Shown here: positions 33,160-33,887 of the stretch, piece after piece | Layout: every line of letters begins with the position of its first letter | Position numbering within the stretch: position 1 is the first letter of the stretch | Assembly: GCF_035581345.1 (NCBI RefSeq) | Contig: NZ_CP141608.1 | Location: 2,386,501 to 2,450,500, forward strand | Source of the DNA: Pseudomonas sp. JQ170C | GTDB lineage: Bacteria; Pseudomonadota; Gammaproteobacteria; Pseudomonadales; Pseudomonadaceae | Length of the DNA stretch: 64,000 nucleotides | Direction: 5' to 3' | Made by a program: the position numbers and the translations under genes | The notes under the pieces: model-generated | What the model was told of the DNA's origin: nothing | Seen by the model: only the letters and a program-made list of their open reading frames with translations | The model's database searches: none

Positions 33160-33173
33160 TCTAAAGTCATCTT

Positions 33174-33196
33174 GCAAAGGGCCGCATCGGCGGCCC
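33174..33196 (-). terminator. Terminator-like hairpin after DUF3077
   Basis: The perfect stem GGGCCGC/GCGGCCC has a 4-base loop and is followed on the minus strand by TTTGC. It lies 16 bases beyond the DUF3077 stop. A near copy of this hairpin without the gene occurs at 45440-45457. Confidence 0.65.
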
Positions 33197-33211
33197 TGGG
33201 TCAACCGACCG

Positions 33212-33556
33212 TCACTCCTTCACTGCAGCGTGAACGGCCTGCACGGAGCGACGCAGCACCGCAGACGTCGCCGCCCGCGCTTCCACTTCATCCAGCAATG
33301 CCTCGATCAGCGCAAGGCTCATTTCCAGCGTGTGCTGCGAACCCCAGAGCAGGTTGCGAACCTCGGGCTCGACCCGCTCACAGGCTTGGGCGGTGGTCTG
33401 GTAGGCACTTTTGATCAGGATGGAGGCATGGACCAGGGCGTCTTCGGACGAGACACCGGCACGTACAGCGAACAGCGGTTCGTGGCTGCCGTTGCAGGAG
33501 CCGAAGGTGGTGGAGGTCTGGGTGGTGAGGGGAGGGTCAGGAACGGGTTTTGTCAT
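33212..33556 (-). CDS. DUF3077 domain protein
   Basis: A 114-residue cytoplasmic protein. The DUF3077 core is LFAVRAGVSSEDALVHASILIKSAYQTTAQACE, followed by helices (LLWGSQHTLEMSLALIEALLDEVEARA). The family is small, abundant in Pseudomonas, often present in many paralogues and of unknown function. AAGGAG lies 7-8 bases before ATG 33554-33556, inside a sequence that can pair with the upstream leader. The leader (33557-33800) is highly structured and resembles an antisense-controlled mRNA. A terminator-like hairpin follows. Confidence 0.82.
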   Translation of the reverse strand: MTKPVPDPPLTTQTSTTFGSCNGSHEPLFAVRAGVSSEDALVHASILIKSAYQTTAQACERVEPEVRNLLWGSQHTLEMSLALIEALLDEVEARAATSAVLRRSVQAVHAAVKE

Positions 33557-33800
33557 TGTGTAGCTCCTTGATTGGTGGAGCCGCCACGTATCGCTACCAA
33601 ACGAATGGGTGGCGGCTGTACGCAGGTTGGTAGACCGGGAATCAAGGAAACCGGCGCGCACGAATGCGCCCTACGCACAGCCGCCATAACACGAAAAAGC
33701 GGGCACAAAAAAAAGCGCCAGCTGAATCGGATGGGGCGCTTGTGCGCCTTGATTCTCTCCCGGGCTACCAAACCCGGTCGCTGGATTTACAGCGACAGCG
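33557..33800 (-). ncRNA. Structured leader with candidate terminated antisense small RNA (C4-like)
   Basis: On the minus strand the order is as follows. A hairpin TCGCTG/CAGCGA lies at 33778-33795 and a hairpin CCGGG/CCCGG at 33760-33777 with loop TTTGGTAG. The single-stranded element GAATCAAGG is at 33747-33755. A terminator AGCGCC...GGCGCT with eight T residues is at 33707-33741. Next come the target blocks CCTTGATTC (33639-33647) and CTACCAACC (33625-33633), a hairpin AGCCGCCAC/GTGGCGGCT (33579-33617), and the Shine-Dalgarno region AATCAAGGAG (33564-33573). The first RNA of about 95 bases is complementary to both target blocks, and the first block is also complementary to the Shine-Dalgarno region. 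The layout recalls phage C4 antisense RNA. No protein is supported here. Confidence 0.6.
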
Positions 33801-33887
33801 AGGAGGGTAGCGGGGTCGGGGGAGGGATTCAAGGGGCAGGGTATGGCGTCAGCGAATTGAACAGCATCACTTCGTTTCTGCCGCGCG

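Follow-up and report, generated by a model that had tools for sequence, protein, structure and literature searches.

C4 is a phage immunity RNA, and Bro-N is a domain of phage antirepressors. The C4 RNA of phage P1 participates in the control of Ant expression (PMC8201110, partial text), and C4 and c4-a1b1 are listed for Proteobacteria and phages in the available part of Weinberg et al. (PMC2864571). In the Salmonella prophage Gifsy-1, the short IsrK RNA binds an inactive read-through transcript and renders it translatable, so that its own read-through mRNA is activated (PMC4825925, partial text). In Acinetobacter baumannii, 21 C4-like Group 1 sRNAs with a variable a′ loop have been described, and these RNAs are apparently processed from longer transcripts (PMC5320573, partial text).

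We analyzed a 64-kb stretch of Pseudomonas DNA (the window) and found that one spot on its minus strand is a known kind of phage antisense switch, a C4 RNA with an IsrK-like partner, placed before a small bacterial gene. The C4, isrK, and c4-a1b1 matches each exceeded the curated Rfam cut-off, with E-values across the window of 1.6e-16, 5.1e-10, and 6.9e-9, respectively, which is far beyond chance. In the RNA, the order from 5′ to 3′ is c4-a1b1, isrK, and C4. The features, from 5′ to 3′ in the RNA, are as follows.

33173..33841, minus strand: the unit as a whole, about 0.67 kb (outermost blastn match ends against L178-L193, among the matches listed)
33804..33832, minus strand: promoter-like motif TTGAAT-17-TACCCT, 5′ of the short RNA (read from the sequence)
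33757..33810, minus strand: c4-a1b1 element, RF03163 (47.5 bits, cut-off 46.7)
33708..33796, minus strand: IsrK-like short RNA, RF01394 (58.8 bits, cut-off 50)
33765..33772, minus strand: b1 block in a hairpin loop, TTTGGTAG (sequence and leader comparison)
33747..33755, minus strand: a1 block, GAATCAAGG (sequence and leader comparison)
33735..33748, minus strand: candidate antiterminator, a small hairpin GGCGC-ACAA-GCGCC that would compete with the terminator (folding with a1 free and blocked)
33707..33741, minus strand: intrinsic terminator AAGCGCC/GGCGCTT followed by eight T (sequence and folding)
33605..33691, minus strand: C4 antisense RNA, RF01695 (89.9 bits, cut-off 45, full length 1-87)
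33639..33650, minus strand: C4 specificity loop a′, TTTCCTTGATTC (hairpin finder and sequence)
33625..33633, minus strand: C4 block b′, CTACCAACC (sequence and leader comparison)
33594..33601, minus strand: b2 block, a second TTTGGTAG upstream of the ribosome site (overlooked in the first-pass annotation)
33579..33587, minus strand: third block, GTGGCGGCT, with complementarity to the 3′ strand of the main stem of C4 (z = 4.7, 76 loci)
33564..33573, minus strand: a2 block, AATCAAGGAG, which holds the Shine-Dalgarno sequence (sequence and leader comparison)
33212..33556, minus strand: 114-aa gene of the DUF3077/DUF6124 family (PF11275 and PF19619)

The first-pass annotation had described a short minus-strand RNA able to pair in two blocks with the leader of this gene. 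All of the elements that it named (GAATCAAGG, TTTGGTAG, the terminator, CCTTGATTC, CTACCAACC, and AATCAAGGAG) are present on the minus strand, with CCTTGATTC at 33647-33639 inside the a′ loop span. The two-block pairing held up, the blocks being found in the window and matched in the leaders of relatives, and so did the overlap of the leader complement with the ribosome site, where a2 includes the Shine-Dalgarno sequence. The ATG of the gene lies at 33556-33554, just 3′ of a2. The second copy of TTTGGTAG makes the ribosome-site target likewise a two-block one, and the complementarity between C4 and this site in the window amounts to 10 bp at a2 and 7 bp at b2. The GTGGCGGCT stretch upstream of the Shine-Dalgarno sequence could let the ribosome-site region invade C4; as a separate observation, its complementarity was weakly locus specific over 76 loci (z = 4.7, control 0.8).

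The promoter-like pattern, which was devised after the motif had been seen, was matched in 11 of 16 leaders (window counted, among the matches listed), and a consensus promoter scan reported no promoter at the locus. The consensus terminator scan, which covers loops of 3 to 8 bases only, missed the terminator at 33741-33707 with its 15-base loop and returned an overlapping site at 33719-33702 and another within C4, with 0.7 expected. Pseudoknot-free folding placed the Shine-Dalgarno sequence in a local hairpin with a′ either blocked or free. A candidate anti-Shine-Dalgarno hairpin scored at 27 of 59 loci, and the control stretch gave 11 of 59. When C4 was folded as a dimer with either the short RNA or the ribosome-site segment, no a′ pairing appeared, kissing contacts not being representable in such folds.

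We consider it likely that this is a chromosomal, self-addressed C4 switch that controls translation of the DUF3077/DUF6124 gene, with the short RNA as a decoy and C4-a1 attenuation as a possible further step. A promoter 5′ of a1b1 would yield one of two products, a short RNA of about 90 bases that ends at the terminator or a read-through transcript carrying C4 and the gene. In the short RNA, b1 would sit in a hairpin loop and a1 in the linker. The C4 loop a′ would pair with a2, Shine-Dalgarno sequence included, and b′ with b2, and translation would thereby be blocked, in cis or once C4 had been released by RNase P. The short RNA, with the same two target blocks, would act as a decoy that occupies C4 as it accumulates and frees the gene, and pairing of C4 with a1 may also favor the terminator and limit read-through. 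We infer the repression, decoy action, processing, and attenuation at the window locus from these complementarities, and both the direction of regulation and the release of C4 by RNase P are predictions. The best reading is that C4 represses at the ribosome site and that the short RNA is a decoy in the subtype that bears a terminator. Release of translation by a competing short RNA, as the first-pass annotation had suggested, is plausible by analogy with Salmonella IsrK, for which it was shown by experiment (PMC4825925, partial text).

Like the C4 of P1 and P7 (RF01695, with c4-a1b1 RF03163), the window has a full-length C4, a1b1 upstream, and a two-block ribosome-site target downstream. Unlike in those phages, the target is a DUF3077/DUF6124 gene and not icd/ant, the tested neighbors are nonphage genes, and relatives carry dozens of copies per genome; a phage antirepressor operon as the C4 target was not found in the window. 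The arrangement also resembles IsrK of Gifsy-1 (RF01394), in which a short terminated RNA precedes a read-through mRNA that carries a complementary segment farther downstream, and activation by the short RNA is proposed for the window by this analogy. However, the window target has no antirepressor match, and the terminator is missing from most of the sister copies examined. With the Acinetobacter Group 1 sRNAs the family shares a chromosomal location, a conserved scaffold, and a variable a′ loop (PMC5320573, partial text). For those 21 members, targets are only proposed in the available text (PMC5320573), whereas in Pseudomonas most C4 copies adjoin a cognate target and the members are more numerous, 54 to 55 in one genome. 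In the window, the block in the P3 loop covers the Shine-Dalgarno sequence, whereas b′ covers the ribosome site in the account of PMC5320573 (partial text), a′ and b′ being labeled here by position. Finally, the P4 CI RNA is an antisense RNA cut from its leader that pairs with segments up- and downstream (PMC4825925, partial text); similar cutting is presumed for the window, and termination, the main output for CI, is only a possible output here in the folding model.

The relatives of the window protein gave 16 loci and 15 usable leaders, window counted, with L186 and L193 dropped (among the matches listed). The 13 leaders measured by script carried five a′ codes and four b′ codes, and among the matches listed, a1 and a2 both followed the changes in a′, and b1 and b2 those in b′. 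The first-pass annotation had regarded a lack of compensatory changes in the paired blocks of homologous leaders as evidence against pairing; this three-way covariation is the opposite outcome. The exceptions were L179, where both a1 and b2 are short, and L190, where b2 is short; in L192, chance may account for the called a1. In L185 and L187, the blocks were visible by eye, and L187 lacks the 5′ half of C4. Separately, the b2-a2 ribosome-site segment of L190 looks tandemly duplicated 5′ of the gene (by eye, with two overlapping blastn matches).

In the window's own genome (5.94 Mb), five places account for the six C4 matches, of which one is a weak tandem neighbor. All four DUF3077 genes of this genome have a C4 upstream, at distances of 88 to 369 bases, and a fifth gene, which matches DUF6124 only, has none upstream. 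An a1b1 element was present at each of the five places with an E-value of 7.3e-9 or better (two of the five exceeded the cut-off), in a search at a loose limit that also gave four more weak matches and matched 9 of 14 control genomes, none above the cut-off. The isrK model was reached by the window copy only. The five copies have different codes, and in 5 of 5 cases the top-scoring downstream target of a C4 was its own, the blocks of three copies having been placed by hand. The own upstream target was also the best for each of the five, narrowly in L004 (30.5 versus 30) and L005 (29 versus 26), where a1 is weak. At L004, an 80-aa frame that matches nothing in Pfam has the paired ribosome site in front of it, and the DUF3077 gene follows this frame; L038 is arranged in the same way. 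At L002 (position 1048519 of the own genome) and L038, C4 and the same kind of terminator precede an open frame of 52 to 53 aa without a Pfam match, and the upstream frame at L002 resembles an AlpA-type regulator by eye.

The private character of the codes was examined over 76 loci, comprising 55 of 55 C4 copies from genome G049, the 15 best scoring of 42 from G019, and all 6 from the own genome; G049 and G019 had been picked for high copy number and a single contig, not at random. In a permutation test that counts related copies as independent, the a′/a2 helix had a mean of 8.4 bp with the own partner versus 5.2 bp with permuted partners (z = 27.8), and the other own-pair helices gave z values of 20.5 (b′/b2), 17.2 (a′/a1), and 18.5 (b′/b1). 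For each of the four, 0 of 10000 permutations reached the observed value. Three control windows gave z values of 1.8 (420 of 10000), -1.5, and 0.0. An initial test of specificity, which took in a wide downstream stretch, gave a noisy result, the own partner being best in 9 of 40; the narrower ribosome-site window was picked after that output had been seen, which the control windows offset in part. The hairpin finder misplaced the loop in L003 and probably in a few others, and these rows stayed in the permutation test. The same own-pair excess, though weaker (z = 6.4 to 6.8), was seen at the 15 loci of G049 that lack a DUF gene. No two of the 55 a′ loops in G049 are identical as strings, rows with misplaced loops counted in, and four of them (L114, L146, L166, and L167) have the a′ core CCTTGAT in common with differing b′ blocks. 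With both blocks summed, the own target was strictly the best in 33 of the 40 G049 DUF loci, and 19 of 1560 wrong pairs did at least as well as the right one; thus, the codes are largely private, and the insulation is strong but not complete. In our reading, the C4 copies form a library of switches, largely insulated from one another, that are coupled to an unstudied protein family.

Across 59 Pseudomonas genomes, the own genome counted, C4 was present in 54 (above the cut-off in 53), with ten or more copies in 36 and a maximum of 54. A more sensitive repeat search of the highest-copy genome gave 55 copies, 52 above the cut-off, the 59-genome count having used stricter filters. In a class-wide set, C4 was found in 7 of 185 genomes, own counted, the other six having one to three copies, and the named relatives of the window protein are nearly all from Pseudomonas (among the matches listed). 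The number of C4 copies rose with the number of DUF3077 and DUF6124 matches over the 59 genomes, with a Spearman coefficient of 0.93 for the summed totals, which add two overlapping families, and 0.88 for DUF6124 alone. All five genomes without C4 also lacked DUF3077 and DUF6124, and six genomes with one to three C4 copies had no match to either. The tie between C4 and this family was also visible gene by gene. With a same-strand C4 within 1500 bases counted as upstream, 40 of 46 DUF genes in G049, 43 of 47 in G019, and 4 of 5 in the own genome had one, compared with about 0.5-0.6% per gene expected under random placement. In G019, 38 of these 43 genes had the C4 within 250 bases and five had it at 547-1066. 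Conversely, a DUF gene followed 40 of 55 C4 copies in G049, 38 of 42 in G019, and 5 of 6 in the own genome, where two of the five have the same gene. For the best-scoring gene per genome (strand of three checked), C4 was upstream of DUF3077 in 27 of 30 genomes and of DUF6124 in 22 of 30; at L076 and L077, it lay about 500 bases upstream of the gene. In two genomes, the best DUF6124 gene (loci L106 and L107) stands beside a PrrF sRNA, without a C4 exceeding the cut-off.

Among the window-type leaders, 14 of 15 carry the terminator GGCGC-T7 or T8 (among the matches listed), but a credible terminator between a1b1 and C4 was found at only about 9 of the 76 loci (11 by script, two of them badly placed, and 0 in the control window). 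Thus, two subtypes exist. The window falls in the IsrK-like subtype, which has a terminated short RNA; the other subtype lacks this RNA and is commoner, and the decoy RNA is therefore not general. The terminator bears on a different ordering of events, in which C4, like the P4 CI RNA, acts primarily by pairing with a1b1 to cause early termination and the ribosome-site pairing is secondary. The hairpins that follow a1 are mutually exclusive, and when a1 was blocked, pairing of the terminator's 3′ arm was predicted with a probability of 1.0 in 14 of 14 leaders (among the matches listed); with a1 free, the window had 0.43 and L190 had 0.15, by a measure that counts any pairing of that arm. The CI RNA itself acts by pairing with seqA and seqC (PMC4825925, partial text). 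However, 8 of the 14 leaders (among the matches listed) reached 0.93 or more for this arm even with a1 free, which makes the attenuation step weak, and while terminators are confined to about 9 of 76 loci, covariation is stronger for a′/a2 (z = 27.8) than for a′/a1 (z = 17.2). We therefore regard termination as the primary output as doubtful; attenuation through C4-a1 pairing is possible, not established, in this folding model. The scheme of the first-pass annotation, with the short minus-strand RNA as a C4-like antisense RNA of reversed sign, draws on the real two-block pairing of that RNA with the leader and on the activating role of short IsrK in Salmonella (PMC4825925, partial text). Its likeness to phage C4 was correctly sensed, the Rfam C4 search giving 89.9 bits, but the match lies in the leader and the short RNA is the a1b1/IsrK element, and on this placement the assignment was rejected. 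Because the leader is C4 and the short RNA is its upstream target, a reversal is uncalled for; blocking of the ribosome site is still what C4 would be expected to do, the short RNA being its target or decoy, and b2 completes the C4 circuit without any need for a reversal. We consider this scheme improbable.

A further reading is that C4 and the DUF genes are decayed prophage remnants, neutral leftovers without a present function, and here the target gene and its surroundings are informative. The window protein exceeded the curated cut-offs of both PF11275 (35.7 bits, cut-off 21) and PF19619 (33.6 bits, cut-off 27). Its single PHROG match was weak (E 0.0019) and to a family of unknown function there, which would fit a phage origin, as would the degenerate copies (L006; L187, by eye; and four sub-cut-off matches in the sensitive C4 search) and the occurrence of C4 5′ of Bro-N antirepressor genes in the same genomes. 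However, matching changes have been retained in several places across dozens of copies, which requires selection, the window protein had no match in phage or plasmid records at the limits used, and the two adjoining genes tested by Pfam encode an alkylsulfatase and a Rid-family protein. We judge neutral remnants to be very improbable. Neither Pfam nor PHROG gave an antirepressor match for the window protein, and of 19 viral-contig stretches that fit a sequence pattern, none encodes a relative of it; recent carriage of the window gene by a phage or plasmid is thus unsupported in the phage, plasmid, and viral-contig searches. A DUF6124 query matched one phage record near its end (bases 61-405 of 22689) and no plasmid record.

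Returning to the self-addressed switch, the unit of about 0.67 kb was found again at other chromosomal places in relatives (blastn against L178-L193, among the matches listed). LysR-type and MFS-type frames near the window gene were identified by eye only. Among the matches listed, an alkylsulfatase or Rid neighbor was found within 2.5 kb at 0 of the 16 relative loci, by which positional orthology was rejected, and 2 of the 16 had only a weak LysR-type match (27-28% identity). The homologous unit extends at most over 33173-33841 and its neighbors are unshared, which suggests from sequence comparison that the C4-DUF unit is a cassette that moves between places. A search around Rid homologs in five genomes, to a distance of about 1.5 kb, showed neither an alkylsulfatase nor a LysR or DUF match and thus no clean empty site, and no insertion mechanism was found for the cassette.

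It is conceivable, though we hold it only tentatively, that the C4 and DUF3077/DUF6124 cassette is dispersing and that its codes, largely insulated, diversify because of mutual silencing between copies that share a code, in the manner of incompatible phages or plasmids. If so, one cell would contain dozens of orthogonal translational switches, a natural library, and any incoming element bearing the code of a resident C4 could be silenced by it as well. Cognate targets can be read beside most C4 copies in a common bacterial genus, so that one scaffold presents dozens of naturally occurring antisense pairs, most of them orthogonal. For the Acinetobacter C4-like family, targets are proposed but unassigned in the available text (PMC5320573). 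Why a genome keeps many privately addressed small genes thus becomes testable. The literature searched, which covered few subscription papers, contained almost nothing on DUF3077 (furfural tolerance only), nothing on DUF6124, and no link by name between C4 and either family, and no report of Pseudomonas C4 copy numbers was found in the titles and abstract openings searched, again with few subscription papers covered. The one DUF3077 case concerns an evolved furfural-tolerant Pseudomonas putida with a one-base insertion in the DUF3077 pseudogene PP_RS01475 (PMC9630843, partial text).

Not all C4 copies precede DUF genes. In L126, L132, L139, L164, L171, L172, and L173, C4 precedes small proteins of about 86-111 aa, and those of L132, L139, L164, and L171, when scanned, had no Pfam match. 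Genes with a Bro-N domain lie 3′ of C4 in L116, L156, and L176 (by Pfam) and in L119 (by sequence likeness), and this position of C4 5′ of antirepressor genes ties the chromosomal family to the phage type. In L156 (G049, position 6041087), a DUF6124-type N terminus, MIKVTPNPPE, is fused to Bro-N behind C4.
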